From Sulfuricurvum sp. (GTDB taxonomy: Bacteria > Campylobacterota > Campylobacteria > Campylobacterales > Sulfurimonadaceae), in NCBI GenBank assembly GCA_024637295.1, contig JAGXFL010000011.1, positions 124,001-188,000 on the forward strand: DNA of 64,000 nucleotides, given 5' to 3'. Below are positions 5,936 to 57,538 of the stretch, in pieces. The notes below the pieces were generated by a model. That model made no database searches. It was not told the origin of the DNA and saw only the letters and a list, made by a program, of their open reading frames with translations. Numbering within the stretch: position 1 is the stretch's first letter; every line of letters begins with the position of its first letter. The translations under genes and the position numbers were made by a program.

Positions 5936-5936
5936 A

Positions 5937-7178
5937 ATGCGTTATTTACTGATACTTTTTTTTGTCTCAACACTTTGGGGTGCCGATGCTACGTTAGAAG
6001 TTACTAAAACTGTGGGTGCGTTGCCACGGCTTGCAATCGAGGATAGCAGTGCTGTGACGAATGATGCAAGTACCCGATTTCATAGAATGCTCAGTGCTGA
6101 CATGAATGTGGTTTCGCTGTTTGAAGTTGACGATCGTTATGCAGCTCAATCATTAGACAATACACAGGCAGCAGCGATTCATAAAGATGCCATTTATCTT
6201 TTACGTTATCGTTTAGTGGCTGATGGCAGTGGTGGATATCGATCGGATGTTAAACTGTTTCAAAACGGTTTAGAACTTTTTAGTAAAGTCTACTACCTGA
6301 AACAAAGTGAGATGCTGGTTTTTTTAGCGCATTCTGTTGCTTACGACATCAATGCAAAAATGGGTGGCGGACCTTTAGAATGGATGAAGCGCAAAGTTCT
6401 TTTTGTACGTCTTAGCGGACCTCGTCGCTCTGATATTGTCGCGGCAGACTATACGTTATCGTACCAAAAAGTGGTTTTGAGTGGAGGGATGTACGGATTT
6501 GCTAAGTGGGCAAATGGTGAACAGACCGATTTTTATTATACCTCTCTGAGTGACTTTCACCCGACGATCTACAAAGTAAATCTGGCCACAGGAAACAAGT
6601 CAGCAGTGATTTCATCTGACGGAATGGCCGTTTGTTCGGATGTGAGTGAAGACGGCAATAAATTGTTATTGACATTGGCGCCTAACGGTCAGCCTGATAT
6701 TTTCCTTTATGATTTACGAACTAAAATAAAAGAGAGATTGACGGATTACTCAGGTATTGATGTCAGCGGGCAGTTTATGGGAGATAATAGAATCGTTTTT
6801 GTTTCTAACCGTATGGGTAATCCTAATATATTTACTAAAAAAATAGGAGAAAGTGCTATTAGCCAGGTTGTATTTGAGGGAAAAAACAATTCAACATGTA
6901 CTGCATACCATGATTGGGTAGTCTATAAAGCGCGTGAAAGTTCTTCAGCTGGAGGGAGTACGTTTAATTTACATCTAATTTCCATGCATAACAGTTCAAT
7001 TCGCCGTTTGACGAGTAGTGGGGACAATGATTATCCTCGTTTTTCACATGATGGACAGGCAATATTACATATAAAACAAGAAGGTGCACACAGTATGGTC
7101 GGAATTATCCGTCTTGGTGTGAATAAAAGCTTTAGTTTTCCATTACATATAGGACGTATGCAGTCGATTGACTGGTGA
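5937..7178 (+). CDS. tolB: TolB periplasmic beta-propeller protein
   Basis: A periplasmic Tol-Pal component that binds Pal and helps keep the outer membrane attached during division. The N-terminus is a signal peptide (MRYLLILFFVSTLWGADA). An amino-terminal TolB domain follows, then propeller-blade repeats of the form DVSEDGNKLLLTLAPNGQ, DIFLYDL, NRIVFVSNRMGNPNIF and YPRFSHDGQAILHI. The length of 413 residues is normal. It is one base after the TolA-like gene and just upstream of pal. Confidence 0.94.
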   Translation: MRYLLILFFVSTLWGADATLEVTKTVGALPRLAIEDSSAVTNDASTRFHRMLSADMNVVSLFEVDDRYAAQSLDNTQAAAIHKDAIYLLRYRLVADGSGGYRSDVKLFQNGLELFSKVYYLKQSEMLVFLAHSVAYDINAKMGGGPLEWMKRKVLFVRLSGPRRSDIVAADYTLSYQKVVLSGGMYGFAKWANGEQTDFYYTSLSDFHPTIYKVNLATGNKSAVISSDGMAVCSDVSEDGNKLLLTLAPNGQPDIFLYDLRTKIKERLTDYSGIDVSGQFMGDNRIVFVSNRMGNPNIFTKKIGESAISQVVFEGKNNSTCTAYHDWVVYKARESSSAGGSTFNLHLISMHNSSIRRLTSSGDNDYPRFSHDGQAILHIKQEGAHSMVGIIRLGVNKSFSFPLHIGRMQSIDW

Positions 7179-8660: not shown

Positions 8661-8699
8661 CTATTTGCCTCTTTTCAGGCTAAGCATAGCTAATTGTGC

Positions 8700-8705
8700 T
8701 AAAAT
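8700..8705 (+). promoter_or_regulatory. Putative extended -10 promoter of slyD
   Basis: TGCTAAAAT, an extended -10 box, lies 31 bases before the slyD start in the only gap (76 bp) between cpoB and slyD. This would start a separate slyD-fabD transcript. It is by inspection, with no experimental support. Confidence 0.45.
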
Positions 8706-8736
8706 CGCATTATCTTAAAATTTGTAAGGCAAATCA

Positions 8737-9258
8737 ATGGCAATTGAAGCAAATCAGATCGTTTCGATCGAGTATGAAGTACGTGATGGACAAAATGTTG
8801 TAGACAGTAATATTGGTGGTGCGCCATTGGTATTTATGTTTGGTAAAAATCAAGTTATCTCAGGTCTTGAATCTGGAATCGCGAATATGAGCATTGGTGA
8901 AAAATCAGATGTACTAGTTAAAGCTGCTGATGCATACGGTGATTATAATGAAGAAGCACAGCAAGAGCTTCCTCGTGAGCAATTTGCAGGTATTGACTTA
9001 AATGTTGGAATGACACTTTACGGTCAAGGTGAAGACGGCGGTACGGTTCAAGTTACTGTCAAAGAAGTTAAAGATGAGAATGTTGTGATTGATTTTAATC
9101 ACCCATTAGCAGGAAAAGACTTGATGTTTACAGTAACGATCAGTAATATCCGTGATGCATCTGCTGCAGAAGTAGCTAGCGGTATTCCTGCTGAAAATGC
9201 TGTCGATGACAGTGGATGTTGTGGAAGCGGTGGTAACCACGGTTGTGGATGTCACTAA
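8737..9258 (+). CDS. slyD: SlyD-like FKBP peptidyl-prolyl isomerase and metallochaperone
   Basis: A cytoplasmic FKBP-type prolyl isomerase with an insert-in-flap domain. The core motif (VSIEYEVRDGQNVVDSN, then PLVFMFGKNQVISGLE) and the later DFNHPLAGKDLMF are typical of SlyD. The C-terminal tail SGCCGSGGNHGCGCH is rich in Cys and His, which in SlyD relatives binds nickel. That would suit delivery to nickel enzymes such as hydrogenase or urease, but no such gene is in this window. It is followed by an overlapping regulator-like gene. Confidence 0.93.
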   Translation: MAIEANQIVSIEYEVRDGQNVVDSNIGGAPLVFMFGKNQVISGLESGIANMSIGEKSDVLVKAADAYGDYNEEAQQELPREQFAGIDLNVGMTLYGQGEDGGTVQVTVKEVKDENVVIDFNHPLAGKDLMFTVTISNIRDASAAEVASGIPAENAVDDSGCCGSGGNHGCGCH

Positions 9259-10015
9259 TTTTTTAACAGCTTCAAGCGCCTCAGTAGAGGCGTTTAAGAC
9301 CGCAAATTTATTAAAATCGCTATCGGTTAATGCTATGATTATTGGCGAACGTGGAACTGGAAAGCTCACACTGGCACGCTATATACTCCCTCATGCTCCT
9401 ATTATCGACGCAAACCGTTTTGAGGAACTATTAGAAGCAATTGAACGTAATAGTGAAATCATTATTCATCGTCTAGATGATGTGGCAAATCTAAAACGTC
9501 TGATTGACACCTTAAATAGGACCAAGACGCGAGTCGTTGCAACAGGTGGATACCGTTATACGCAAGATCAACTAGAAGAGATCTTTTCGATTCGTCTGGT
9601 ATTACCGCCTTTGAACCAGCGACAGGAAGATATTGCGCTTTTGGTAAATTTGTTTGTAGAAGAAGCAAAAAATACGTTCGGAAGATCCGATGAATTTGAT
9701 ACTCAAGAATTTGTCCCTGATGTGAGTGAAAATGCACTTTCACTTCGACGACAGGTCTATTTGTATTATTTGTTGAACAATATACAAGAAAATGATTTGA
9801 TGAAAATTATCGAACATTTCTTAGTGGATAAGTTAGGCAGTAATAACGATTACCGAAAATTTTTGCCTTTGTACGAAGTCCCATTGATCCGTGCTGGAAT
9901 TAAGCGATTTAAGTCGCAGTTGCAATTGGCAGATAAATTGGGGCTAAATCGTAATACGTTACGTAAAAAAATAGCTGAAAACAGCGATTATCAATTTGAT
10001 TTAAAGGATATGTAG
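9245..10015 (+). CDS. Sigma-54 activator-like protein with Fis-type HTH, reduced AAA region
   Basis: The protein has a degenerate P-loop (IIGERGTGKLTLARYIL), a stretch resembling the sensor part of NtrC-type AAA domains (VLPPLNQRQEDIALLVNLFV), and a C-terminal Fis-type helix-turn-helix (LQLADKLGLNRNTLRKKI). It is much shorter than a full sigma-54 activator and lacks a clear GAFTGA loop, so ability to activate sigma-54 is doubtful. The start chosen is GTG at 9245, giving MDVTNFLTASS; an in-frame ATG at 9197 would overlap slyD deeply. Its place between slyD and fabD is common in this phylum. Confidence 0.75.
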   Translation: MDVTNFLTASSASVEAFKTANLLKSLSVNAMIIGERGTGKLTLARYILPHAPIIDANRFEELLEAIERNSEIIIHRLDDVANLKRLIDTLNRTKTRVVATGGYRYTQDQLEEIFSIRLVLPPLNQRQEDIALLVNLFVEEAKNTFGRSDEFDTQEFVPDVSENALSLRRQVYLYYLLNNIQENDLMKIIEHFLVDKLGSNNDYRKFLPLYEVPLIRAGIKRFKSQLQLADKLGLNRNTLRKKIAENSDYQFDLKDM

Positions 10016-10953
10016 TGGGTCAGAAAAGAATAGCGATGATTTTTCCGGGGCAAGGTAGCCAGAGTATCGGGATGGGAAAATCTTTTTATGAGAATAGCTC
10101 TGTCGCACGTGAGATGTTTGAAAAAGCAGGAGAACGTATCGGAGTTGATTTCACGAAACTATTGTTTGAAGAAAATGATCTGCTGGATAAAACAGAGTAC
10201 ACGCAACCTGCGATTTTATTGATTTCTTTGATCGCGTATCGATTGTTTCAAGATGCAATGCCAACCAAGCCCGCTATGCTGCTTGGTCATTCTTTGGGTG
10301 AGTTTAGTGCCTTGAGTGCTGCAGGTGCGATTGATTATGTTGATGCAGTAGAACTAGTACATAAGCGCGGAGCGTTGATGCAAAGTGCGTGTGAAGAAAT
10401 TGATGCGGGTATGATGGCAATTTTAGGGCTAGAAGATTCTGTTGTTGAACAGCTTTGTGCAACAGCTAACGCAGAAGGTAAAAAAGTATGGACTGCTAAC
10501 TTTAACCAAAATGGTCAGCTAGTCGTTGCAGGTTTAAAGGCCGATTTGCAAGCAATGGAATCAACGTTTAAAGAAGCAGGTGCAAAACGGGCATTATTAC
10601 TAAACATGTCCATCGCAAGCCACTGTCCGCTCCTTTCAATCGCACAGGAGCCTTTGGCACAAGTGATGGAAAAAATGGTAAATGATACATTTATCGCACC
10701 GGTTGTCTCCAATGTTACAATGCAAAAATATGCAACCAAAGCTGATGCTGTGGCATTACTAAAAGAACAGTTGGTCAAGCCTGTACGGTATAAGCAGTCG
10801 ATTGAAGCGATTGTCAACGAAATCGATGTGATGATCGAGTTTGGTAACGGCGCGGTTCTAAAAGGTCTAAATAAGCGTAACGCACCTAATAATGAGACGT
10901 ATGGTATTTCTGATATGGAAACGCTTACAAAGGTATGTGAAGCACTCCAATGA
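10015..10953 (+). CDS. fabD: Malonyl-CoA:ACP transacylase
   Basis: It transfers malonyl from CoA to acyl carrier protein, supplying type II fatty-acid synthesis. The start (IAMIFPGQGSQSIGMGKSF) and the nucleophile motif LLGHSLGEFSAL are canonical; the catalytic histidine lies in MSIASHCPLL. The 312-residue length is normal. The GTG start overlaps the previous stop by one base and the stop overlaps the next gene, so it is in the middle of a tightly packed operon. Confidence 0.96.
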   Translation: MGQKRIAMIFPGQGSQSIGMGKSFYENSSVAREMFEKAGERIGVDFTKLLFEENDLLDKTEYTQPAILLISLIAYRLFQDAMPTKPAMLLGHSLGEFSALSAAGAIDYVDAVELVHKRGALMQSACEEIDAGMMAILGLEDSVVEQLCATANAEGKKVWTANFNQNGQLVVAGLKADLQAMESTFKEAGAKRALLLNMSIASHCPLLSIAQEPLAQVMEKMVNDTFIAPVVSNVTMQKYATKADAVALLKEQLVKPVRYKQSIEAIVNEIDVMIEFGNGAVLKGLNKRNAPNNETYGISDMETLTKVCEALQ

Positions 10954-14209: not shown

Positions 14210-14288
<79 letters not shown>

Positions 14289-16467: not shown

Positions 16468-17339
16468 CCCACACTCTCCCACACAGGCTTAATCTCATGC
16501 GCCACAAACCCACCGTCGCTGATATTACGCATGATATTGGCGAATCCAACCGCAGTGATAATTGATAGCTCTTTTTCATCGAAGCGTGCGGTATCCCACG
16601 ATCCGTCCTCTTCCATCTTTGTAAGATTATTTGCTTGAGCACTATTAAAAAGCTCATCTGAAAGAACCGAACACTTAGCGCGGAAACTCTCAAACGGGTC
16701 AAGCGGAGCCGCCGCCCCATTTGAAATTTTTTTGGGCTCACCTTTACCCTCATAATCACACCATCGCTTCGCATTGAGCCACGCAGAAGCCATCTTCGGC
16801 TCTTGCCAAGACTTCTCTGCGAGGTCTGCTATGTAGTGATTGAGCCCAAACATGATTTCGTTGAAATGTTTTGCGTGCTTCGCGAATACCTTGCAGGCAT
16901 TTTCACGGTCGCGGTAGTTGATTGTATTGTAGAGTTCCCAAAAAGTAAGCCAGTTCGCGTGATCATCCGCGCCCATTTTCGCCTCATACTCTTTGCGCGG
17001 CTTAGAATCCGCCGGCGGATTTTCCCCTTGCTTAATAGCGGCCGCCCCATTTGCGATTTTTTTGAGGCTATGAATCTCTCTCCACAACTTCGTCGTTCGC
17101 ATCTTGAAATGTCCCGACTTCTCGACAACTCCGGTACAAACGAGCATATCGACCGACCGAACCATAGTGCGGCTCGAAAAGTTGAACAACTCCCCGATCT
17201 CTTTGGACTTTTTAAACGCCCAAGGCTCTTCATTATACGGAGAGTACGCGTAAAAATCGATAGCAGCGGCTATAACGTACTCATCTACGCTCAGACCTAG
17301 CTCCGCCCTTATATCATTGTGGACCGTCGTGGATAGCAT
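16464..17339 (-). CDS. Winged-helix replication-like protein
   Basis: The N-terminal 90 residues look like a winged helix of phage replication-initiator type (LGLSVDEYVIAAAIDFYA, FNFSSRTMVRSVDMLVCTGV). The middle (WLTFWELYNTINYRDRENAC) resembles phage replisome-organiser proteins. Two in-frame repeat inserts, KKIANGAAA and KKISNGAAAP, and one palindromic insert (NPPADSK) lie in linkers. In the circular phage it would be close to the helicase gene. The role in origin binding is inference. Confidence 0.6.
   Translation of the reverse strand: MLSTTVHNDIRAELGLSVDEYVIAAAIDFYAYSPYNEEPWAFKKSKEIGELFNFSSRTMVRSVDMLVCTGVVEKSGHFKMRTTKLWREIHSLKKIANGAAAIKQGENPPADSKPRKEYEAKMGADDHANWLTFWELYNTINYRDRENACKVFAKHAKHFNEIMFGLNHYIADLAEKSWQEPKMASAWLNAKRWCDYEGKGEPKKISNGAAAPLDPFESFRAKCSVLSDELFNSAQANNLTKMEEDGSWDTARFDEKELSIITAVGFANIMRNISDGGFVAHEIKPVWESVG
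17006..17021. repeat. Palindromic element copy 1
   Basis: AATCCGCCGGCGGATT, a perfect 16-bp palindrome, lies in frame in the replication-like gene and encodes NPPAD. Six further copies or near copies occur at 18896, 26032, 31696, 33830, 43050 and 49537, all inside ORFs of the prophage. Confidence 0.85.
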
Positions 17340-18868: not shown

Positions 18869-19141
18869 ATGTACCCGAAGTGCCCCGATTGTGCAAATCC
18901 GCTGGCGGATTATGTCGCCCTATCTGCTTGGTCGGTTCATACTAGAATTGGATTTTCGGACATGTCTAATTTTACGTGGGGATGCGGCGTTTACGCCCAA
19001 AAAACAGAGAAAAAGTCCGGAGTTATTTCACTCACAGGCAACAGTCGTTCCGATAAAGCCCAAAAAAGAGCCAAAAAAATTTCAAATGGGGCGGCGGTCG
19101 GAGGAAGAAAAGGGGATTTTCGCGCAAATGGGGCGTGGTGA
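18869..19141 (+). CDS. Possible small zinc-finger-like ORF
   Basis: The frame begins MYPKCPDCANPLADYVALSA and has a later WGCG, so a Cys-based zinc site is possible (CPDC plus one later Cys). It includes a palindromic element (NPLAD) and a KKISNGAA repeat, then ends in a Gly/Arg-rich tail. No good ribosome site is seen. It may be a decayed gene rather than an active one. Confidence 0.3.
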   Translation: MYPKCPDCANPLADYVALSAWSVHTRIGFSDMSNFTWGCGVYAQKTEKKSGVISLTGNSRSDKAQKRAKKISNGAAVGGRKGDFRANGAW

Positions 19142-23460: not shown

Positions 23461-24095
23461 AAAAAGTAATCTCCCTAGCCAATTCCAAAGGCGGAGTGTC
23501 AAAATCCACGATGGCATGGAACCTCGCTATCACATTGCAAATGCTTGGTTTTCGCGTTGTTCTCATCGACATCGATATACAGCAGCTCACGATCACTAAA
23601 ACAGCACAGGCACGTACAGCGTCAGGTTATGATCCGTTCACTGTCATCACCGCTTCATCCATCGATGAAATGGTACAGATCACACAGAGCGATGATTACG
23701 ACATCGCTCTTATCGATGTCGGAGGATATGACTACGATCTTGGACGTGTAGCCATGTCTCTATCGGATCGTATCGTCGTCCCGATCTCTGAAGATCCTAC
23801 GGAGCTTTTTGGGTTCATATCGTTTTTGGGATCTCTAAAAACGATCTCCGAGCACACCGCGCTCCCCCCGATCATGATCGCCATCACCCGCGCCCATGCG
23901 CGAGCCAAAGCGTTTAGTGGTGTTAAATCTGCTGCCGCACTATGGCCATCAGCTACCATCGCCGAAACGATCACCCGCCGCCGTGCGGTGTACTCCGCAT
24001 CGATGGGTCATGGGTTCGGAGTCACTGAACTCGCGGCCAAGTTCCCCGAAGCGGCAGATGAGACGTACCGACTTGCACGGGAGGTGGTAGCGTGA
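23457..24095 (+). CDS. parA: ParA-type partition ATPase (non-canonical start)
   Basis: The N-terminus KKVISLANSKGGVSKSTMAW carries the deviant Walker A motif KGGxxKST with the signature lysine. Further blocks are VVLIDIDIQQLT, DIALIDVGGYDYDLGRVAMS (Walker B) and DRIVVPISED. The first canonical in-frame start, GTG at 23496, falls inside the Walker motif and would destroy it. Upstream in frame there is only ATA at 23457, six bases after GGAGGA and overlapping the previous TAA, or ATC at 23469. I give 23457; a -1 frameshift from the previous gene is the alternative. The length of 213 residues is short, typical of plasmid small ParA proteins. Confidence 0.8.
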   Translation: MKKVISLANSKGGVSKSTMAWNLAITLQMLGFRVVLIDIDIQQLTITKTAQARTASGYDPFTVITASSIDEMVQITQSDDYDIALIDVGGYDYDLGRVAMSLSDRIVVPISEDPTELFGFISFLGSLKTISEHTALPPIMIAITRAHARAKAFSGVKSAAALWPSATIAETITRRRAVYSASMGHGFGVTELAAKFPEAADETYRLAREVVA

Positions 24096-24247
24096 ACCTC
24101 AGAGAAATAAACCGAATAATAGCTTCCCTCATCGCCGAGGGCAAGAGCGAAAATGACAAATTGATAGCGTTCTACCGACGTAAGCGCGAAGAACTTCTAC
24201 AGAAGATAAAAGCTGATGTAGCTAAAAAATTGGAGGGATTATCATGA
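24092..24247 (+). CDS. Small helical protein, unknown (51 aa)
   Basis: It has a GTG start in a GTGA overlap with parA and a stop in an ATGA overlap with the DUF2786 gene. The product is highly charged and helical (NLREINRIIASLIAEGKSEN, then YRRKREELLQKIKADVAKKL). GGGAGGTGG serves as ribosome site. In this position between parA and parB it could be an accessory partition protein, but no domain is recognised. Confidence 0.6.
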   Translation: MNLREINRIIASLIAEGKSENDKLIAFYRRKREELLQKIKADVAKKLEGLS

Positions 24248-24960
24248 GCGACCCTAAAATCATCGAAAAAATCAAAAAGCTACTAGCACTCAGCCTGAGC
24301 GATAATCCCCATGAGGCAAAACTGGCAGCACAAAGAGCTGTAGACCTCATGGCATCCTATGGCATCGCAGAAACAGATCTTGATAATAACCCGTTTGTCA
24401 GTGAGACATTCAAATCACGGCACTATTACAAACTCCCGATATGGGTATCGACTCTTTGGGGGCAGTTAGGATGGGCGAGTGGATGTTTTGTTGTATATCA
24501 GCACGGAGCCAAATGTTGGGGCAAAAAAGCATCTGTAACCGTAGCCGGTAAAAAAGCGGACGTAGAGATCATGCACTACATGGGTGAATATTTCGAGGAT
24601 GAAATCTACAAAAAAAGCGAGGAGTTCAAAAAGCAGCACAAGCGGCTAAAACCCTCCGTGTACAACAAATATAAGCAAGGCCTAGCGATAGGAATATCCC
24701 ATCTGATTAAAATGAGTCAGGATGATTTTTTTAAATATCACTCAGAGACAGTAGGCAAAGGCCTCATCCCAATCGATGTTAAATATCAAGAAGCGCAAGA
24801 GTATTTTGAAGAGTTCAATAAAGTGGACCGAACAGTCAAAAGAGATACTGAAGACCCTGCCGTACTAAAAGGGATGCGAGACGCAAGTGAGATCAGCATT
24901 AGCAAAGGCGTTGCAGGTACGATAAATACTCTCGCGCTAGAGCATAAGGTGCAACTATGA
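24244..24960 (+). CDS. DUF2786-domain protein
   Basis: The N-terminal 40 residues (IEKIKKLLALSLSDNPHEAK, then LAAQRAVDLMASYGI) match the DUF2786 domain found in many phage and plasmid proteins. The rest (VSTLWGQLGWASGCFVVYQH, VTVAGKKADVEIMHYMGEYF) agrees with the domain found downstream in this family. The function is unknown. ATGA overlaps link it to both neighbours, parB following. Confidence 0.85.
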   Translation: MSDPKIIEKIKKLLALSLSDNPHEAKLAAQRAVDLMASYGIAETDLDNNPFVSETFKSRHYYKLPIWVSTLWGQLGWASGCFVVYQHGAKCWGKKASVTVAGKKADVEIMHYMGEYFEDEIYKKSEEFKKQHKRLKPSVYNKYKQGLAIGISHLIKMSQDDFFKYHSETVGKGLIPIDVKYQEAQEYFEEFNKVDRTVKRDTEDPAVLKGMRDASEISISKGVAGTINTLALEHKVQL

Positions 24961-25787
24961 AAAAACAACCCATAAACGCAGCCCTCTTAGCCTCTATAGC
25001 AGCAGGCGCAGCACTAAAAACCCAAGACGTTTCACACAGCGCACAAGCACCCTCAGAGATCTCCTGCGCCCTCATCGATCCCAACCCATACCAACCTCGC
25101 CTCGACTACGATCCGGCAGAGGTGCGTGCTCTATCAGACTCTATCGAAGAGTATGGATTGCTCCAGTCCATCGTCGTACGTCGTGACGGTGATCGTTATA
25201 CCCTCGTCGCAGGACATACCCGCCTCGAAGCGTTTAAACTCTTAGGACGCACCACGATCCCTGCTAACACTATCGACGTATCCGATATCGAAATGGCATC
25301 CTTGGCACTGATCGAGAACGTGCAGCGCTCCGATCTTCACCCGCTGGAGATTCAGATCGCAATATCCCGTGAACCGTTCACATCGATGAAAGACGAAGAT
25401 ATCGCGCAGATCCTCGGATATTCCAATGTCACCAAGGTACGAAACATCCGATCCATCAGCCGACTCTCCGAAGAAGTACGTGAGCACATGACCGCTAACC
25501 GACCGAAGATCGGAGTGGATCTCCTCGTCGAAATCCAAAAGTTTGATACATCGGATCAGTTCCACTATTATGAGCTAATTATATGCGGGCAAGCTACCCG
25601 TCAAGAACTTCGCAACTGGCTATCATTAAAAGAGCTAAAAAAGCGGCAAGAAACCCGAAAACCGCATTTTCCCTTAACGCGAGTCGGCTCAGTCTATAAA
25701 ATAGATTCGACTGTCATTTCTAATAAAGACATCAAGGCTTTTGAGAATGATCTGCATACTATTATAAAAAAATACAGAAAAGGATAA
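24957..25787 (+). CDS. parB: ParB-type partition/nuclease-fold protein
   Basis: The ParB N-terminal domain is clear: CALIDPNPYQPRLDYDPAEV, LSDSIEEYGLLQSIVVRRDG, LVAGHTRLEAFKLLG (CTP-binding GxxR-like motif) and LALIENVQRSDLHPLEI. A HTH-like part follows (DEDIAQILGYSNVTKVRNIR). With ParA upstream this is a complete partition gene set; no parS repeats were identified. The gene is coupled by ATGA to the preceding one. Chromosomally integrated phages seldom need partition, which suggests a plasmid stage. Confidence 0.88.
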   Translation: MKKQPINAALLASIAAGAALKTQDVSHSAQAPSEISCALIDPNPYQPRLDYDPAEVRALSDSIEEYGLLQSIVVRRDGDRYTLVAGHTRLEAFKLLGRTTIPANTIDVSDIEMASLALIENVQRSDLHPLEIQIAISREPFTSMKDEDIAQILGYSNVTKVRNIRSISRLSEEVREHMTANRPKIGVDLLVEIQKFDTSDQFHYYELIICGQATRQELRNWLSLKELKKRQETRKPHFPLTRVGSVYKIDSTVISNKDIKAFENDLHTIIKKYRKG

Positions 25788-38060: not shown

Positions 38061-38485
38061 GGCAACACCAATACTGGCAGCATTAAAATGAAATCTTCTA
38101 CCGCAGGTAAAGGGATAGTTCCCGCTTGAACTTGTGCCAAAACCTCATACCCCTTGGCATTACACGCATCCATCCATGCGCCATACACCAATCCCTCAGC
38201 ATGATAGGGAGAGTTTACCAACGCGGCACGTAGTGAGGCGGTATGGATCGTTGTGTATCCGCGCTCATTGGCTTTTTTGTTCATGTGATCTTCGAGCGCT
38301 TTTTCATACGTCGTTTTTGTCTCAGTGAATACCAATGCAGCATATGCCGTATCCACAGCCGTAATCTCAACTGGCAACAGCGCACGCCATGCCCCTTTAT
38401 CCATTACTACAAACTCAGTCGCATTAAACCCGACTTGTAGCCCCGTTACTTTTCCGATTGCAGTTTTACGCAGCGCATTGCTCAT
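38057..38485 (-). CDS. Phage protein, unknown
   Basis: A 142-residue protein starting MSNALRKTAIGKVTGLQVGF, overlapping the reverse transcriptase 3' end by 20 bp and the next gene by 4. It has no recognised domain; the composition (Ala-rich, one hydrophobic C-terminus, VEDFILMLPVLVLP) suggests a soluble virion or assembly protein. Its start inside the reverse transcriptase gene suggests co-expression with the DGR. Confidence 0.65.
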   Translation of the reverse strand: MSNALRKTAIGKVTGLQVGFNATEFVVMDKGAWRALLPVEITAVDTAYAALVFTETKTTYEKALEDHMNKKANERGYTTIHTASLRAALVNSPYHAEGLVYGAWMDACNAKGYEVLAQVQAGTIPLPAVEDFILMLPVLVLP

Positions 38486-39464
38486 ACATTCCCCTTATTG
38501 TTGATTTTAAATTATGGCTATCAGCCGTTTGAACGTGTCCGTGCCATGAGGCTAGGAACGCTCTTAGGTTTTCACTATCACCGTTTGCCACGTACCGCTT
38601 CACTTTTCGTTTGGCTCTAGTCACGCTGTCTTTTCGGATGAGCTTATAAGTAGGAGCTATTCGGTATCCCAAGAAATTCACTTGCTTATGCACCGATGAG
38701 ATCATCCAGTGGCTAAATTTGAGGTTCATGTGCGTACGGGCAAACGCTTCGAGATAGTCGCGCAGCTCTTTGAGATGTTCTTTGTCATGACTGAGAATCA
38801 CCGTATCATCCATGTATCTAAAATAGTGCTTTTTTCCCAGCTCTTCTTTGACATGACGGTCAAAGATATGTCCGTATAAATTGGCGCATAACTGTGAGAG
38901 TAGATTACCGATAGGGATACCGACACCATTACGATCACCGAACTGCTCCAGCAATGAGATCACTTTCTTATCGCTGATCTTGCGCTCGATCTCTGTGAAC
39001 AAAACGCCTCTATCAATGCTCACATAATATTTGGAGAAGTCCATCTTTAGAAAAAACACTTCTCCCTCTGACTCCATCTGTCGCATCGTCGATTGTACGG
39101 CTCTTACTCCTGCATGAGTACCTTTGTTCTTTCTGCAAGCATACGTGCATGAATAAAAGACGTTATCGAAGATAGGCTCGATGATGTTGTTGATAGCGTG
39201 TTGCACGATACGATCACCAAACGGCAGCGCATTGATAATCCGTTTCTTTGGTTCATAGACTTCAAACTGACTGTATGCTCCATGATGGTAGCTTCCATCG
39301 ATGAGAGCGGTTTGGATACGATAGAGATTTGCTTCGAGATCTTCTTGAAACTTCAAGTGTCCCTCGGTATATCGATTCCCCCCTCGGCTCGCCTTTCGGT
39401 ATGCGCTTCTCAGGTTCTCGATATCGTGAATCAAATCGTAAAGATGTTTATGTTTAGCACCCAT
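38466..39464 (-). CDS. DGR reverse transcriptase
   Basis: It copies the template RNA with adenine-directed errors to give mutated cDNA for the variable repeats. Motifs in order: FGDRIVQHAINNIIEPIFDN (RT2a), FLKMDFSKYYVSID (motif A), GIPIGNLLSQLCANLYGHIF with the IGxxxSQ form that marks DGR enzymes, RYMDDTVIL (catalytic YMDD), and NFLGYRI (motif E). At 332 residues with no nuclease or maturase domain it matches DGR RTs rather than group II or retron enzymes. It is transcribed after avd and the template repeat. Confidence 0.95.
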   Translation of the reverse strand: MGAKHKHLYDLIHDIENLRSAYRKASRGGNRYTEGHLKFQEDLEANLYRIQTALIDGSYHHGAYSQFEVYEPKKRIINALPFGDRIVQHAINNIIEPIFDNVFYSCTYACRKNKGTHAGVRAVQSTMRQMESEGEVFFLKMDFSKYYVSIDRGVLFTEIERKISDKKVISLLEQFGDRNGVGIPIGNLLSQLCANLYGHIFDRHVKEELGKKHYFRYMDDTVILSHDKEHLKELRDYLEAFARTHMNLKFSHWMISSVHKQVNFLGYRIAPTYKLIRKDSVTRAKRKVKRYVANGDSENLRAFLASWHGHVQTADSHNLKSTIRGMYEQCAA

Positions 39465-39617: not shown

Positions 39618-39727
39618 GGTTACAGGCGTAGCGACAACCATTATTCCAATTCGTATTCCACACGTAATTATTCCAATTAGACGCGCGCGAGCCGGACTCC
39701 ACGGTGTTGTCACGATTGCCGCCAAAG
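39618..39727 (-). repeat. DGR template repeat (TR)
   Basis: This 110-bp segment between avd and the RT gene matches VR1 and VR2 along its whole length. On the minus strand it would read FGGNRDNTVESGSRAS, then NWNNYVWNTNWNNGCRYACN; nine positions are AAY asparagine codons that in the variable copies become other amino acids. It has 26 adenines in the sense strand. The RT start is 154 bp further downstream. An ORF runs through it, probably by chance. Confidence 0.95.
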
Positions 39728-39755
39728 ATAGCCGTATGTCTCATTTTCCCCTGAA

Positions 39756-40091
39756 TCATCTCTTGATCCAAGTACCGAGTATTTTTCCCACTTCGTCAAT
39801 CTTGATCGATGCGACTTGGTGTTGATGCTGTGAGATAAAGCGACGTTTATCGTTCGCCATAAATCGCAACCAATACCGTATCGTTGCGAGATTTGCATCT
39901 GCTTCGTGCAGTTTGGATTTCTGATCTGATTTAAGAGCTTTATAAAAAAGCTCTGTTTGGATAAAGATAGATTGGATAATCATCGCTTTTACAGTACCGT
40001 GCTTGCGCTCCATGTTCTGCACGACAGGGTAGATGTAGTTGATAAACCCGTCGTATTTTTCGATGATGACCAGCAAACTATCGCGTCCCAT
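39756..40091 (-). CDS. avd: DGR accessory variability determinant (Avd)
   Basis: The 111-residue, all-helical product (YDGFINYIYPVVQNMERKHG, then FYKALKSDQKSKLHEADANL and ATIRYWLRFMAN) fits the four-helix Avd family, whose pentamer binds the RT and template RNA. It stands between the VR1-bearing tail fibre and the TR, as usual. The ribosome site GGAGG is part of the sequence just past the 17-nt post-VR motif. Identification rests on size, helix pattern and place. Confidence 0.88.
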   Translation of the reverse strand: MGRDSLLVIIEKYDGFINYIYPVVQNMERKHGTVKAMIIQSIFIQTELFYKALKSDQKSKLHEADANLATIRYWLRFMANDKRRFISQHQHQVASIKIDEVGKILGTWIKR

Positions 40092-40101
40092 TTAGAGCCT
40101 C

Positions 40102-40118
40102 CATTCGCTTTCGCTCAT
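40102..40118 (-). promoter_or_regulatory. Post-VR1 motif (candidate DGR target-recognition hairpin)
   Basis: CATTCGCTTTCGCTCAT on the plus strand; its complement can form a GC-GAAA-GC hairpin with a tandem G-A mismatch and flanking AT pairs. It starts 16 nt beyond the 3' end of VR1. The identical 17 bases lie 17 nt beyond VR2 (54731-54747) and not beyond the template. Confidence 0.6.
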
Positions 40119-42484
40119 TACGCAAGCTCCAAGTGGTTACAGGCGTAGCGACAACAATAATTCCAACCCGTATCCCACACGTAAGTAGCCCAAAAAGACG
40201 CGCGCGAGCCGGACTCCACGGTGTAGTCACGAAAGCCGCCAAAGCGAGCCCCTACTGGGGAAGCGGCATTACCATAAATAGAACCCCTTCCCTCAGTATT
40301 GGCAGCCCATGCAGAAGCTACGCCATTATTCCCTATATCTTTACCCCAAATCCATTGACAGCCCGTAGCCATACACATACCGAACTTAGAGGTAAAGTTA
40401 GCGAGATGCTGAGTGACACCTGTATCCGCTGCGCCCGCTGATGTTGCTTCGAGAACCCCATAAGCGATGGCACAAAACTCTTCATACGAGATCATGTCTT
40501 TGCCGTATGCTTTACCAATCTCCGCCGCTTCAAACCATGTGAGTGTTCCGTAGGTAGTCGTACCGTTTCCACCGTAGAAAGTAGGAATTTTAGGGAAGTT
40601 ACGCCCATTGAGTACCGTACCCCCTGCGATGGTTTTTCCTGCTGCCGATGTACCAAAAGTATGATGATCCACATTGAGTAAATAGAGGTCATACCATTTA
40701 CCCGTATTGGCTTTGAACATACCACGGTTATCACCATTGGAAGCTCTAAACTTCAAATCCCAAAAAGAGTACGCATTGATACCAGCGATCTTCGTAGCAT
40801 CTGCCGCAACGATGTTGTTGATAGCCGTAAACGCTTCAGGAACAACACCATAATGAAACCCACCGATTTGGCGAGAGTTCGCAGTCGTGTATCCCGTCGG
40901 ATTCGTAGCATTGGCAGAGAGAATAAACCCACCCGCTTCGAGCGCATAGACATAGTAATCTGTCCCTGCGGCTTTCACACCTGTATCGAGTGCGCCTACT
41001 CCTACGCTGTTAAGTGAGAGGGTGTAGGCGGTTCCCGATACGGTGATAATATTTACTCCGGCTTTTACTGATGTGCCGATGGGGATGGTGATTGTGGAGA
41101 CTGAGGCTTTGGTGAATAATGGGGCGCCTTGGAAGGGTTTGGTGAAGTTTACGACACTGATGCCATTGATCGTAGGCGTTCCAGTTAGGTCAGGGGAAAG
41201 AAATAGTGATAATTTAAAATCACCAATTCCTATCTTTTTTAGAAGTCCTGATACACTGTCCCAAAACCCAAGTTCGTCTATACTTGCTGGTGTTGTTTTT
41301 ACAGGAGCTGCATGGATTTGAGCGGCGATATCTGATGAAGATATCCATGCTACTCCATTCCATGTTTCCCCTATGCCAATCTCAGTATTAAACCCTGTCG
41401 CTCTATCACTAGCTCCAAGCACAGGGCGTGTAGCCGTCGTCCACTGTGGTAACCCGATAGATCCGGTAAATACTGGATTTGCAGTTGGGGCTTTCGTTCC
41501 AATCAGCGTTGTCATTGTTGTCGCAAAAGCAGGATCATCACCCAGTGCTGCTGCCAACTCATTGAGGGTATCCAGTGTTGCAGGAGCAGTATCGGTAAGT
41601 GCCGCGATAGCAATAGAGATATTAGCATCCGTTTGAGTTTTGGTGTAGACATCGGTAATACCATACCCAGCAGCATTGGTAGGGGTATTTTGGATATGAC
41701 TAAAATCTACACTTACATCATCGGCACTAATTGTCAGCGTATTGGTCACATCATCATAAACTATGGATATATTAGTGCCTTGTTGGATTAATGCCGCAAC
41801 GCGATCATCAACCCGTTCATCGGTGTAGTATAAATTATTGAAGCCCTCGGAGATATCATCACTCGATAGTACGACTGCCCCTATGTGCCCATTGACGCTA
41901 AACACGCCACCGCTATTAAGCATTTTCCAGTTTGCCAATGTAGACGCAGGAAGAGCCAAAAGCATATACTGCCGCTGATCATCAATACGAAATGCTAAAT
42001 CTCCGGGCTTTGCAGCGGCAAGCGCCAACATAGATGCTTCATCTGAAGTAGGGAAAATATCAATAATATTAAGGCTTTCTAGAAAAGATGGGTCAATTTT
42101 TCCATTTACACCAAGCGGTGCATATCCATTAGGAACCCCTCTGTTCGTTGTAAACTCGACATTATCCATATCCGCAGGCTTGCCTGTAATCTCGCTCCAG
42201 TTTACATATCCAAAACCAGTATTACCGTTTGCGTCCGTTTTCACAAACTGCATCGGATATACACGGCCATCTATGATAGCTACGGGGTGAAAATCAGGGT
42301 GAGTATAGTTATTGGCATTTTCTGCTATAGCTTCTAATTTTGATTTTTCAGCACTCAAAAACTCGGCTTCGCTTAACCCCTTACCTACTACTTTATCAAC
42401 TTTATTATCCTGAGTAGCAATGATGCTTTTTATTAATTCTATAAAACTAGGCACAGTATCCCCTTTGTATTTCAGCACAGCCAA
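40118..42484 (-). CDS. Tail fibre / receptor-binding protein, DGR target 1
   Basis: This 788-residue fibre probably binds the host surface. The N-terminal third has tail-fibre features (MAVLKYKGDTVPSFIELIKS, FNNLYYTDERVDDRVAALIQ, NGHIGAVVLSSDDISEGF) and the C-terminal 250 residues form a C-type-lectin-like domain of the formylglycine-generating/DGR type (GQ...YDLYLLNVDHHTFGTSA, TGCQWIWGKDIGNN). Its last 40 residues are VR1, ending HLELA just after the invariant CRYACN. It lies directly upstream of avd, TR and RT. Confidence 0.92.
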   Translation of the reverse strand: MAVLKYKGDTVPSFIELIKSIIATQDNKVDKVVGKGLSEAEFLSAEKSKLEAIAENANNYTHPDFHPVAIIDGRVYPMQFVKTDANGNTGFGYVNWSEITGKPADMDNVEFTTNRGVPNGYAPLGVNGKIDPSFLESLNIIDIFPTSDEASMLALAAAKPGDLAFRIDDQRQYMLLALPASTLANWKMLNSGGVFSVNGHIGAVVLSSDDISEGFNNLYYTDERVDDRVAALIQQGTNISIVYDDVTNTLTISADDVSVDFSHIQNTPTNAAGYGITDVYTKTQTDANISIAIAALTDTAPATLDTLNELAAALGDDPAFATTMTTLIGTKAPTANPVFTGSIGLPQWTTATRPVLGASDRATGFNTEIGIGETWNGVAWISSSDIAAQIHAAPVKTTPASIDELGFWDSVSGLLKKIGIGDFKLSLFLSPDLTGTPTINGISVVNFTKPFQGAPLFTKASVSTITIPIGTSVKAGVNIITVSGTAYTLSLNSVGVGALDTGVKAAGTDYYVYALEAGGFILSANATNPTGYTTANSRQIGGFHYGVVPEAFTAINNIVAADATKIAGINAYSFWDLKFRASNGDNRGMFKANTGKWYDLYLLNVDHHTFGTSAAGKTIAGGTVLNGRNFPKIPTFYGGNGTTTYGTLTWFEAAEIGKAYGKDMISYEEFCAIAYGVLEATSAGAADTGVTQHLANFTSKFGMCMATGCQWIWGKDIGNNGVASAWAANTEGRGSIYGNAASPVGARFGGFRDYTVESGSRASFWATYVWDTGWNYCCRYACNHLELA
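40135..40244 (-). repeat. DGR variable repeat 1 (VR1)
   Basis: It aligns with the template without gaps. Thirteen bases differ: twelve at template adenines (to T, G or C) and one G-to-T change in the codon after the ninth asparagine. The nine Asn positions read F, Y, F, A, T, D, G, N, Y. The 3' part (TGTCGCTACGCCTGTAACC) is unchanged and would be the homing-initiation site. Confidence 0.95.
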
Positions 42485-45955: not shown

Positions 45956-46485
45956 TAGTTACCTTTCGGTTTTTTTGGAGCTTTAGTTTGTGCAACTTCT
46001 GCATCTGCTTGAGCTTGGGCTGCTTGTGCAGCTTCGGCATCTGCTTGAGCTTGGGCTGCTTGTGCAGCTTCGGCATCTGCTTGAGCTTGAGCTGCTTGTG
46101 CAGCTTCGGCATCTGCTTGAGCTTGAGCTGCTTGTGCAGCTTCGGCATCTGCTTGAGCTTGGGCTGCTTGTGCAGCTTCGGCATCTGCTTGAGCTTGGGC
46201 TGCTTGTGCAGCTTCGGCATCTGCTTGAGCTTGGGCTGCTTGTGCTTGGGTCAATTCTTCAGCAGCAAGAAAAACATCGGCAGGGATGTAGCTCAAAAGC
46301 ACATTTAGATCTATGGCTTTAAAATCTTTATTTTTACGCATCATATGCGCTGTCAGCTCAGGAACGATGACGATATCCCCATTTTCAAGAATAGGGAATA
46401 CACGAACCGCAACCAGCTGTTTAAACCGCTGTGGTTCTTGACCCACGTATTTAAGTGCTTTTAGGTTCGGTGTGTGTATTTTCAT
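45955..46485 (-). CDS. Head protein with seven 12-residue Ala/Gln repeats
   Basis: The first 80 residues look like a small globular domain (MKIHTPNLKALKYVGQEPQR, VRVFPILENGDIVIVPELTA). The rest is seven repeats of AQAQADAEAAQA, the last slightly changed, followed by a basic tail (KAPKKPKGN). The repeats should form one long helix. It is between the coat-associated gene and the adaptor, so it is probably a virion protein. Its function is unknown. Confidence 0.7.
   Translation of the reverse strand: MKIHTPNLKALKYVGQEPQRFKQLVAVRVFPILENGDIVIVPELTAHMMRKNKDFKAIDLNVLLSYIPADVFLAAEELTQAQAAQAQADAEAAQAAQAQADAEAAQAAQAQADAEAAQAAQAQADAEAAQAAQAQADAEAAQAAQAQADAEAAQAAQAQADAEVAQTKAPKKPKGN
45985..46236 (-). 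repeat. 36-bp tandem repeat (7 copies) inside a head gene
   Basis: Seven copies of a 36-bp unit encode AQAQADAEAAQA. Copies differ by single bases (for example GGG versus GAG in the Ala codons). The in-frame unit means copy-number change would lengthen or shorten the helix without breaking the gene. Long plus-strand frames over it are artefacts. Confidence 0.9.
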
Positions 46486-53671: not shown

Positions 53672-54076
53672 CTAATTATTGGGGTGATATTCCCCATGTC
53701 CGGTTGTGTTTCCTGCTGCATCTTGTTGCTCTACAGGTATCCCGCCATCCCCTTTGCTATCCAGCATCTGCATACTCTCAACGATCATGGAGTGCTTAGA
53801 GCGCTTTTGCCCACTTGTCTTATCAACCCATTGCTCAAAGTTCAATCGTCCCTCTACGAGGATTTTAGAACCCTTGCGAAGGTATTGATTGGCAACCTCA
53901 CCGCTACGCCCAAAAAAGGTGATATCAACAAAACATGTCTCTTCTTTTTTCTCACCGTTTACCGTAAACTTACGGCTTATAGCAATCGCAGTGTTTGCAA
54001 TCGCAGAACCATTTTGAGAATATCTAAGTTCAATATCGCGGGTTAGGTTCCCGACTAAGATCACTTTATTGAACAT
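53672..54076 (-). CDS. ssb: Single-stranded DNA-binding protein
   Basis: It protects ssDNA during phage replication. The OB-fold N-terminus is standard (MFNKVILVGNLTRDIELRYS, ANTAIAISRKFT, EETCFVDITFFGRSGEVANQ, LRKGSKILVEGRL). The protein has 134 residues and ends GEYHPNN, without the acidic DDDIPF-like tip that bacterial SSBs use to recruit partners. It overlaps the exonuclease gene by one base. Confidence 0.93.
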   Translation of the reverse strand: MFNKVILVGNLTRDIELRYSQNGSAIANTAIAISRKFTVNGEKKEETCFVDITFFGRSGEVANQYLRKGSKILVEGRLNFEQWVDKTSGQKRSKHSMIVESMQMLDSKGDGGIPVEQQDAAGNTTGHGEYHPNN

Positions 54077-54693
54077 TAACTATCTTCCCCTCTGATTAAG
54101 CCAATTAGTACAAAAAATAGTTTTCTCGTAGCTTCAATATCCGAAGAGGCATCATGTGCATCAATGGCTATTCCATATTTTTCTGCCATTGTCTCAAGCT
54201 TAAAGTCTTTAGGCTCAAACATTAACCCCATAGCATAAGCAGTTCTTGCTAGTGTCATCACATCGATAACCCTGTGATCGAGATATTTTCCTAGCTTTTT
54301 TTCACCTACAACTGTAGCCCATCCAAATAGCATATCCTTATCAAAGCCTACGTTGTATCCAGCAAGAATAAACTTATCTGTTTTGTCTTCTAAATTTATG
54401 TGTCCACTTAATGTGGTTATTAACTTCTGCATCCCTGCCGCATAACTTTGGTAGCTCGATAAATCATCTTGAGTCTTGCCTGAAATAGATAAAGCATCAA
54501 TCTCACAATCTTGATTCTTGTCATGCCAAGAACTAACTTTACAATGCGGCAATGGATTGGCATTGATATCAAATCCAATGAGAGGATTGGCTTTGTCCAA
54601 TACACTCAATTCAATTAATCCGGCAACTTGATGTACTCCGTTTTCAACTGGGTTCAGCCCTGTTGTTTCTGTATCAACCCATAATACTTTCAT
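54076..54693 (-). CDS. DnaQ/RNase T-family 3'-5' exonuclease
   Basis: The DEDDh motifs are visible: VDTETTGLNP (Asp/Glu), ILAGYNVGFDKDMLFGW (second Asp) and AHDASSDIEATRKLFF (His and last Asp). The 205-residue protein has only this domain. It would act in replication proofreading or recombination of the phage, being placed between SSB and the DGR target protein. Confidence 0.88.
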   Translation of the reverse strand: MKVLWVDTETTGLNPVENGVHQVAGLIELSVLDKANPLIGFDINANPLPHCKVSSWHDKNQDCEIDALSISGKTQDDLSSYQSYAAGMQKLITTLSGHINLEDKTDKFILAGYNVGFDKDMLFGWATVVGEKKLGKYLDHRVIDVMTLARTAYAMGLMFEPKDFKLETMAEKYGIAIDAHDASSDIEATRKLFFVLIGLIRGEDS

Positions 54694-54696
54694 CTA

Positions 54697-55698
54697 TTAT
54701 TCCTTAGCTTCATTAACATTTTCTGCCTCACATTCGCTTTCGCTCATGTCTACAGGATGCAAGGGGTTACAGGCGTAGCGACAACCATAAGACCAATTCG
54801 TATACCACACGTAAAAATGCCAAAAAGACGCGCGCGAGCCGGACTCCACGGTGTTGTCACGAGGGCCGCCAAAGATTTTCTTTCTCTCTATGTTGTCTCC
54901 GTACTGCTCACTGCTCCAAATCCATTGACAGCCCGTAGCTTGTTCGATTCCATACTTAGACATAAAATCAGGGATGTGCTTAGTGATACCGTTATCCAAA
55001 TCACCGGCACTATGATTTTCTTTGACACCATACATAGCGACTTGAAACTCTTTTTCAGTGAGCATACGTTTACCGAACTTGTCACCGATCTCTTTGAAGT
55101 CCTGCCATTTACATTCGGTTTTATCTTTTGGAAGTTTTCGCCCATGATGTTCATATCCTGCGAGAATGTTATATCCTGCTGCCGATGTTCCGACCTCTTC
55201 GTATTTATCACTCACAAGATACATATCAACCCATAGGTCAAGATTTTTAACATATGCCATCCCTTTTGGATCACAAGTAGGACGATGGTATTGATCCCAA
55301 ATAGTGTTTGCTTTAATCCCTGCTAACTTCTTGGCGTGTTTTTTGCCTATGTTGTTGATCGCTTTAAAATCTTCACCACATTGCCCATAATGAAAACCGC
55401 CGACGATATCGCCACTGGCTCCTAGAAGATCTTTAAGCTCATAGAGTTTAAAAGAATTTCCATCTTTACAGATAAAATAATCAGTACCTTCTTTTTTAAC
55501 AACACCTTCGTCGTTTAGCGACAACTCAAGACCATCGACAAATACCGTATGCGGATTCGCTTTGACAATGGATACTTTTTTAGTAAGCACCTTCGCCACA
55601 GCCATGCTCTTGCAAAACGAATTATAAAAATGCGCGACTTCTTCCCATTTCCCAGTTAACACTACGCCTACGTTGTTTATGTTTGTTTCTAAAATCAT
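54697..55698 (-). CDS. Second DGR target protein, lectin-fold, among replication genes
   Basis: The 333-residue protein has the same C-terminal lectin-like domain as the tail fibre (GGFHYGQCGEDFKAINNIGK, LWVDMYLVSDKYEEVGTSAA, TGCQWIWSSEQYGDN) and ends with VR2 plus 21 further residues (HPVDMSESECEAENVNEAKE). The N-terminal 90 residues are not fibre-like and carry no signal peptide or membrane segment. It stands between the helicase and exonuclease genes, away from structural genes. Possible roles: a free or virion-bound binding protein, or a displaced fibre domain. Confidence 0.9.
   Translation of the reverse strand: MILETNINNVGVVLTGKWEEVAHFYNSFCKSMAVAKVLTKKVSIVKANPHTVFVDGLELSLNDEGVVKKEGTDYFICKDGNSFKLYELKDLLGASGDIVGGFHYGQCGEDFKAINNIGKKHAKKLAGIKANTIWDQYHRPTCDPKGMAYVKNLDLWVDMYLVSDKYEEVGTSAAGYNILAGYEHHGRKLPKDKTECKWQDFKEIGDKFGKRMLTEKEFQVAMYGVKENHSAGDLDNGITKHIPDFMSKYGIEQATGCQWIWSSEQYGDNIERKKIFGGPRDNTVESGSRASFWHFYVWYTNWSYGCRYACNPLHPVDMSESECEAENVNEAKE
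54731..54747 (-). promoter_or_regulatory. Post-VR2 motif (candidate DGR target-recognition hairpin)
   Basis: The same 17 bases as after VR1 (CATTCGCTTTCGCTCAT), 17 nt past VR2. Here they are inside the gene and encode MSESE. Flanking bases add ACAT/ATGT pairs on the two sides of a GAAA-capped stem. Confidence 0.6.
54765..54874 (-). repeat. DGR variable repeat 2 (VR2)
   Basis: It aligns with the template over 110 bp without gaps; all eleven differences fall on template adenines. The nine Asn positions read P, N, F, H, F, Y, N, S, Y. It differs from VR1 at most of these, so the two have been mutagenised separately. Confidence 0.95.
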
Positions 55699-55737: not shown

Positions 55738-55917
55738 TTATAGACAAATTACTTTCTCTAAAAATACTCTCCGAACCCTACGCCCGCGCTTGAGGATAGC
55801 AGTTATTGCCCCCCCCTCTTCAAACATTGGCAAAGGCTTCTCAAGCCCAACAACTACATATTTAACTGCTATTTTTCCATTAGAGAGTTTTACCTCGCTT
55901 CCTACTAAAACCATCAT
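55738..55917 (-). CDS. Small basic protein, unknown
   Basis: The 59-residue product starts at ATGATG after GAGGAGGAT, an excellent ribosome site, 10 bases beyond the helicase stop (MMVLVGSEVKLSNGKIAVKY, ending RGRRVRRVFLEKVICL). The longer open frame overlaps the helicase gene. It looks like a small beta-barrel; no family is recognised. Confidence 0.65.
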   Translation of the reverse strand: MMVLVGSEVKLSNGKIAVKYVVVGLEKPLPMFEEGGAITAILKRGRRVRRVFLEKVICL

Positions 55918-55927
55918 ATCCTCCTCT

Positions 55928-57289
55928 TTAAATCGTTGGCATACTGATTTGGCCGGACTGACCTCCGGCAACTTCATTGAGTTGATCCTCAACAATCTTC
56001 ATCGCACTCTGTCCCGTCGTTCTCCCATTAGAGTCTTTATGCTCTACGGGAATCGAGGCACCTTTTTTATGCCCCTCATACTCGATACTATTTCCTGCAC
56101 TATACGGCCGCGTGAACATCAGAGTGTATGGATTAAAATTCACTTCACCCTTGAAGTGCTGCCCTGTCTGTTTATTCTTACTAAAGATAATTTTACGCAT
56201 CTCTTTTTTGCCATTTTCAGGATCGTCTTTGACCAGCTTGAGATGAATAATAATCGAGGCCTCATGCGCCCCTTTCTTTGTCCCCATCGGAGAGATCACC
56301 GACGCAGCAGCATCCGCCTTCGAGTTTTGGATGATGAGCAGGATCACGATGTTTAGCCGATGAGATAGTTTTGCCAGTCGGCTAAACTTCTCAGACTCAC
56401 GATCTTCCATCGTTCCGTTATTGGCCGCGTTCTCCATCCGCATCTGTGAATCGATGACAAAAAACCGCGCACCGCGCTTCGCCCAAATCTTGATCTCACG
56501 TTCCAAGTCCACGATGTCGTACCCATCGTCAATAATTTGCAGATGCTCATTCTCATACGCTTCACTCTCTACACGCATCTGTAGCTTCACGAGGCTATCG
56601 GTCGTAAACTCAAACGCAAACAACACCGCAGGGTTTAGTTTTGTGATATTTTTGAGGATTTGCATCGTAAGAATTGTTTTCCCCGCTTCGGGGTCGCCGG
56701 AGATGAGGATGAGTTGCCCCATTTCAATACCTCCATTGAGTGCTTCATCGATGAAACTCACCCCCGTGGCGTACACTGGAGCTGGAGGGTTTAAGAGGTA
56801 CTCTTTTTTAAGCTGACTAAACGACTTAGCCCGTGACTGATCCGACATCTCCAACACATCAATGAACCGTGCTACCTCTGCAATGATCTGATCGGAGGTT
56901 TTTTCCTCACTCACTTGCTGCTTTATGACGGTAGATAACTTCACAATCTCCCTCATCGTATAGAACTCTTTGATCTGTGCGACGTAGGGGTTGATGTGAG
57001 CTATAGGGGTAGAGGTTAGAACTTCAACCATCGTCCGTTCATCAAACTTCTTTTTACGCTCCAGCTCAAGCCGCAAAAAAGATTCATCAATCGGTTTATC
57101 ACTTCGATGTAAAAGTAGCATCGTCTCATAAATGTTTTGATGCGATTGAAGATAAAAGTGGTGTGACTTGAGCGTATCGACAACATCGCTGAAGAGTTCA
57201 GGGGAAAAAATAAATGAGGATAAAATTGCCCTTTCATGGGCAAGGTTGTATCCGAAATTGTGATCGGAATCGTTTTGTTGTTCTGACAT
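55928..57289 (-). CDS. DnaB-type replicative helicase
   Basis: The DnaB N-terminal domain (NLAHERAILSSFIFSPELFS, FYLQSHQNIYETMLLLHRSD) is followed by a RecA-type motor with Walker A LISGDPEAGKTILT and Walker B RFFVIDSQMRME. It would unwind the phage replication fork. The start is ATG at 57289 (MSEQQNDSD); the open frame goes on upstream to 57370 but without a ribosome site. It is the first gene of the leftward block, close to attR. Confidence 0.88.
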   Translation of the reverse strand: MSEQQNDSDHNFGYNLAHERAILSSFIFSPELFSDVVDTLKSHHFYLQSHQNIYETMLLLHRSDKPIDESFLRLELERKKKFDERTMVEVLTSTPIAHINPYVAQIKEFYTMREIVKLSTVIKQQVSEEKTSDQIIAEVARFIDVLEMSDQSRAKSFSQLKKEYLLNPPAPVYATGVSFIDEALNGGIEMGQLILISGDPEAGKTILTMQILKNITKLNPAVLFAFEFTTDSLVKLQMRVESEAYENEHLQIIDDGYDIVDLEREIKIWAKRGARFFVIDSQMRMENAANNGTMEDRESEKFSRLAKLSHRLNIVILLIIQNSKADAAASVISPMGTKKGAHEASIIIHLKLVKDDPENGKKEMRKIIFSKNKQTGQHFKGEVNFNPYTLMFTRPYSAGNSIEYEGHKKGASIPVEHKDSNGRTTGQSAMKIVEDQLNEVAGGQSGQISMPTI

Positions 57290-57491
57290 TTTGGCTCTTT
57301 TTACTGTGACCATTTTGTGCCCATAAAGGTACAACAAGTTGTCCACTGCGAAACGGCGCGAATCCCACAAAGACTGCGTTTTCGTGTAATAAAGAGGTTG
57401 TTTTATGATTTATTCTAAAAACTAGGGTAGATCTAAAAAAGTGCCCTTTGTTAGGGGTATTGATTCGGTTTTAACATGATTTTTACACAGT

Positions 57492-57538
<47 letters not shown>

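Follow-up and report, generated by a model that had tools for sequence, protein, structure and literature searches.

What a protein hypermutated by a diversity-generating retroelement (DGR) may be doing among replication genes is the question raised by VP2, a 333-aa open reading frame (54697–55698, minus strand) with a C-terminal variable repeat, located in a prophage of Sulfuricurvum sp.; the whole stretch of DNA analysed (64,000 nucleotides of contig JAGXFL010000011.1) is referred to below as the window. Phage DGRs are generally taken to serve host-receptor switching. The original prediction, that VP2 is a second, remote DGR target for which receptor switching alone is an insufficient explanation, was supported in part: a functional-looking second target, its lectin fold and its location in a replication operon stood, and the intracellular role was strengthened by a similar placement in other phages and by the fusion of other phages' anchorless targets to cytosolic enzymes. 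On balance, VP2 is probably an early, non-virion, intracellular hypervariable binder.

The variable repeat of VP2 (VR2, 54765–54876, minus strand; 112 bp, beginning at VP2 codon 275) was aligned to positions 39618–39729 of the template repeat (TR, 39618–39733, minus strand) with 90.2% match; 11 differences were found (7 A>T and 4 A>C relative to TR), all of them at template A, as had been predicted. The probability that 11 of 11 differences fall on the 27 adenines of TR among 112 sites is 2.5e-8 (hypergeometric). Seven VP2 residues are recoded by these changes in this copy; the changed codons are AAY in TR, so that changes at their two adenines are unable to create stops. The variable repeat of the fibre gene VP1 (VR1, 40135–40250, minus strand) differs from TR at 15 sites (13/15 at A) and from VR2 at 15/112 sites. 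The whole host genome was searched for copies of the repeat; TR, VR1 and VR2 were the only ones, and no additional VR was found elsewhere in it. The predicted remoteness of VR2 from its template holds, with a corrected figure: the distance from TR to VR2 is 15.0 kb, and the 14.5 kb given earlier is the distance from VR1 to VR2. On these sequence data, VR2 is as good as shown to be a genuine DGR target.

The machinery is present on the same replicon as VP2: a reverse transcriptase (RT, 38466–39464, minus strand; RYMDD and IGNLLSQ motifs) and the accessory protein bAvd (39756–40091, minus strand; E = 4e-35), both intact, lie next to TR, and VP1, a tail fibre with Mtd-like C-terminus (40118–42484, minus strand), carries VR1. 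Putative homing hairpins were located 3' of both repeats: ACATGAGC[GAAA]GCGAATGT after VR2 (54730–54749, minus strand) and AATGAGC[GAAA]GCGAATGG in the region after VR1 (40101–40119, minus strand); the BPP-1 hairpin at the corresponding place is GCGGGGCC[GAAA]GGCCCCGC, and this GAAA hairpin element is necessary for BPP-1 homing (PMC3240598). A hairpin with GAAA or GGAA loop (GRNA) was found 3' of the VR1s and VR2s examined; no GRNA-loop hairpin followed any of the five TRs compared. The stem mostly holds a tandem G-A/A-G mismatch, and the outer helix varies among phages with pairing preserved; in the VR2 hairpin of the viral contig L027 the innermost two pairs alone are preserved. The mismatch stands between the GC[GAAA]GC tip and the variable outer helix in the window, L017, L024, L025, L026, L032 and others. 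The window thus resembles the BPP-1 Mtd/DGR system in the layout of target, Avd, TR and RT, in adenine mutagenesis and in the GAAA hairpin 3' of VR.

By sequence, VP2 is a member of the Mtd family (phrog_11262, E = 1.4e-39; PDB Mtd, E = 2.5e-16). Its predicted structure, for which the mean pLDDT is 74 with low values in the variable region, consists of a beta-beta-alpha mini-domain (aa 1–35), a beta-sandwich (~aa 37–103) and a C-type-lectin domain (~aa 104–314); superposition of VP2 36–314 on BPP-1 Mtd 55–380 gave Z 24.6 at 3.2 A over 258 residues, in agreement with the lectin fold claimed for VP2. The best alignment begins at Mtd residue 55, and the N-terminal beta-prism of Mtd, through which the trimer is joined to the fibre, is therefore missing; in the model it is replaced by the mini-domain. 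VP2 shares with BPP-1 Mtd a C-type-lectin domain that follows a beta-sandwich and holds the C-terminal VR, whereas Mtd has an N-terminal beta-prism and tail-gene neighbours, and VP2 has no prism but a beta-beta-alpha mini-domain, lies in a replication operon and is 15 kb from TR. Prediction of the N-terminal structure, proposed earlier as a check, returned the beta-beta-alpha unit followed by the Mtd-like beta-sandwich, with no fibre, consistent with a non-fibre N-terminus. No family for the mini-domain was found in Pfam, NCBIfam or PHROGs, and it is too small for a meaningful fold match. The unit is also present in the model of the homologue L024; homologues L027, L033 and L032 have no N-terminal mini-domain at all. 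Two loops found in VP1s are missing from VP2s. Neither a signal peptide nor a membrane segment was detected in VP2 (maximum 19-aa hydropathy 0.91), as had been claimed, and no Ig domain was found; the VR is C-terminal. The lack of a known anchor is not the same as a lack of virion attachment.

The prophage is bounded by a 47-bp direct repeat, attL (14242–14288) at the 3' end of a tRNA-Met gene (14210–14286) and attR (57492–57538). The minus strand carries, in order, a DnaB-type helicase (55928–57370), a 59-aa ORF (55738–55917; no match in the family search), VP2, RNase T-type exonuclease (54076–54693), SSB (53672–54076, overlapping the exonuclease gene), small genes, terminase and head genes, continuing past these to the VP1 fibre, Avd, TR and RT; the placement of VP2 between helicase and exonuclease genes was thus borne out, with the 59-aa ORF also intervening on the DnaB side, and 3 nt separate the VP2 stop from the exonuclease ATG. 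When the prophage ends are joined, DnaB is preceded by a replication-initiator gene, excisionase and integrase, all on the same strand, so that on excision VP2 would, judged from gene order, sit within a leftward early operon. Its strand in the window is also that of the late genes; early expression is therefore what we infer, and late expression is possible. Promoter-like sites occurred at chance level, and no timing can be read from them. Other features of the window are a tandem repeat of 72-bp units in the head/tail gene region (45988–46245; copies 95–97% identical), ParA-like and ParB-like partition genes within the integrated prophage on the strand opposite the structural genes (23496–25787), and an exact 27-bp inverted repeat (16709–16735 / 19071–19097) flanking the prophage repressor gene.

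Searched with its sequence alone, the viral and genome contigs gave no close relatives of VP2; an alignment of VP2 with the first homologue was required to reach more of them, and homologues were obtained from viral contigs (L024, L025, L026, L027), Sulfurimonas MAGs (L032, L033) and an Arcobacteraceae MAG (L014, = L034). The search for homologues and their gene contexts, also proposed earlier, placed these Campylobacterota genes beside replication or early genes: the gene order is DnaB-VP2-SSB-TerL in L027 and L033; in L025 the genes of the series VP2-ORF-exonuclease overlap, and a primase lies downstream, as it does in L014; L024 has an SSB-like gene downstream and L032 a CII-like activator upstream; and, in L026 (G537), VP2 is near the integrase on the strand opposite the structural genes. 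The last record (35 kb; terminase, portal and tape measure genes present) contains VP2 as the sole DGR target found. In five homologues, every difference between the VR and its cognate TR is at an adenine (8/8, 7/7, 15/15, 13/13, 7/7); for L027 VR2, 10/11 differences are at A, and for L033 VR2, 7/13, six being non-adenine. The RT frame of L033 (17163–18148) is broken in pieces, and its VR2 lies at 10701–10815; a decaying DGR or a sequencing error may be the cause. In a tree including seven VP2s (the window and six homologues; L014 was omitted as a fragment), the VP2s form one clade separate from the fibre-type targets (support 100/99; still 100 after VR removal), with dN/dS of 0.12–0.19 outside the VR, that is, purifying selection. 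A function of VP2 as a silent cassette donating variants to VR1 was considered and dropped because of the purifying selection on the ORF and the 15-site difference between VR1 and VR2.

When an alignment of further Mtd-like targets was used as a probe, 159 relatives were recovered, and the 80 best matches were analysed; these are matches to one query and no measure of prevalence. Two architectures were observed among the best 80 of 159: long fibre N-termini, or only ~85–95 residues ahead of the lectin part's GFHF/GFHY motif. Assignment to the fibre-type or the anchorless class was by N-terminal length, start-codon artefacts being corrected manually; within the same 80, the anchorless class comprises 56 proteins from 33 additional phage loci, with an A-biased TR nearby in 46/56, a hairpin in 51/56, and 540/585 VR–TR differences at A. 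Among these best 80, the ORFs upstream of anchorless targets match repressors/regulators, sliding clamp, dNMP phosphatase and DNA methyltransferases, and none of their 25 commonest families is a tail family; those upstream of fibre-type targets match tail families, central tail fibre J and tail fibre among them. Portal models were applied to 16 anchorless records; a portal gene was found in 16/16, 13–34 kb from the target, and the target is on the strand opposite the portal gene in 12/16. Anchorless targets are often paired on one TR (L066, L070, L072, L074, L077, L082, L084, L088, L093, L095 and others), each bearing adenine changes of its own and, mostly, a hairpin of its own. No family was found for the N-terminus of L089. 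In LR745707 and LR745708 (Escherichia phage T7 records; H12, H13, H26, H27), a gp17 tail fibre with Mtd-like lectin domain was noted, perhaps a chimera.

In two other phages, the position of the VP2 mini-domain is occupied by MazG or nucleoside deoxyribosyltransferase. The L029 target (8670–9878) carries a fused MazG-like pyrophosphohydrolase domain (phrog_229, E = 1.4e-7, yet below the Pfam cut-off; the same in L030 and L064), with 11/12 VR differences at A; it directly follows the DnaN sliding-clamp gene, and after it come a second target, Avd, TR and RT. The L068 target (5425–6846) shares one open frame with a nucleoside deoxyribosyltransferase (phrog_12607, E = 2.7e-57; VR 10/12 at A). Both fusions belong to phages outside the Campylobacterota clade, kin through the Mtd family only. 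In the tree, whose root is not certain, the L029 pair stands with BPP-1-like Mtd, apart from the Campylobacterota VP2s, and the anchorless early-region form may therefore have arisen more than once. Intracellular action of VP2 is suggested by the lack of anchor and signal taken together with the gene neighbourhood and these enzyme fusions in distant relatives.

Two-target phage DGRs have already been published and are interpreted as receptor adaptation (PMC10743442, PMC11792537). According to PMC11792537, the Faecalibacterium prophages Lagaffe_CP, Lelie and CP11 have one TR and two VRs, as here, both targets of Lagaffe_CP are Mtd-like, as here, and broadening of host range is proposed by the authors; unlike for VP2, neither placement in an early operon nor loss of an anchor is described in the portion of the text covered. 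The gut phages nd4/nd12 (tentaclin + tgt2) possess in tgt2 a small prism-less C-lectin target like VP2, with a DUF3310-like N-terminus in nd12 and, unlike VP2, no Mtd beta-sandwich; receptor binding is supposed by the authors (PMC10743442). The diversified C-lectin domains of the cellular targets of Thiohalocapsa PB-PSB1 were proposed as antigen sensors for foreign proteins, and some are served in trans, like VP2; they are bacterium-encoded and tied to NACHT/STAND defence, whereas VP2 is phage-encoded (PMC10907252). In the largest survey, published in 2021, remote DGR targets were stated to be undetectable by the approach used, and for clades 1, 4 and 6 the targets in viruses were described as mostly tail proteins (PMC8144416). 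Neither MazG fusions of DGR targets nor the early-region anchorless class was found in the open literature searched, subscription journals and preprints lying mostly outside it.

Alternatively, VP2 might be an additional ligand on the virion, in line with how the published two-target phages are read (PMC11792537, PMC10743442): it would act as a second receptor-binding tip, diversified for wider receptor choice, made from the replication region and assembled into the tail via the beta-sandwich or the mini-domain. The fold of VP2 is that of the Mtd receptor-binding family, PHROGs gives the label 'tail protein', and the gene lies on the late-gene strand in the window; we nevertheless regard this role as unlikely, since VP2 has neither beta-prism nor fibre, the L027 and L033 homologues have no N-terminal domain of any kind, the placement by replication genes is conserved, and in other phages the anchorless targets mostly lie opposite the portal strand, two being fused to cytosolic enzymes. 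VP2 is likely not a tail component. It is quite improbable that VP2 is a soluble lectin, freed at lysis or carried to the surface by an unspecified route, which blocks receptors against rivals or binds debris: a soluble, anchorless protein with a fold suited to surface ligands would be compatible with such a use, but VP2 has no signal or export feature, release at lysis needs no early operon placement, and the MazG and deoxyribosyltransferase fusions of the wider class would be senseless extracellularly. The idea that VP2 is a dead copy of the fibre gene's 3' end carrying a fixed VR, named in the original prediction as an outcome against it, can hardly be upheld, for despite the clear homology of the VP1 and VP2 C-termini and the six non-adenine differences and broken RT frame of L033, it is contradicted by the old, separate and monophyletic VP2 clade, by its dN/dS of 0.12–0.19, by adenine-only differences and by the conserved hairpin.

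For VP2 as an early intracellular binder, we propose a course whose first part is well supported by sequence. VP2 is a second target of the prophage DGR, served in trans across 15 kb: RT-Avd copies TR with errors at adenines, and the cDNA replaces VR2, guided by the 3' portion that the repeats have in common and by the GAAA hairpin at 54730–54749; in this way the seven residues in the variable part of the C-type-lectin domain have been recoded. The protein would presumably be produced together with helicase, exonuclease and SSB and, having no visible way to join the tail, would remain in the cytoplasm as a hypervariable binder; the mini-domain may serve for oligomerisation or for contact with a partner. 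As a guess, its ligands would be fast-varying intracellular proteins, namely those of host defence or of competing phages.

The more general proposition, that phages hold hypermutable intracellular recognition proteins, namely anchorless C-type-lectin binders whose genes stand with early genes or are fused to those of nucleotide enzymes, diversified by the DGR to neutralise or exploit fast-changing host-defence or rival-phage proteins, is put forward tentatively. If it is true, phage DGRs serve an intracellular arms race besides receptor switching. The recurrence of an anchorless class outside tail regions, some members of which carry cytosolic enzymes, suggests that phage hypermutation may in part act intracellularly, and the loci listed here provide many systems in which intracellular DGR action can be tested.
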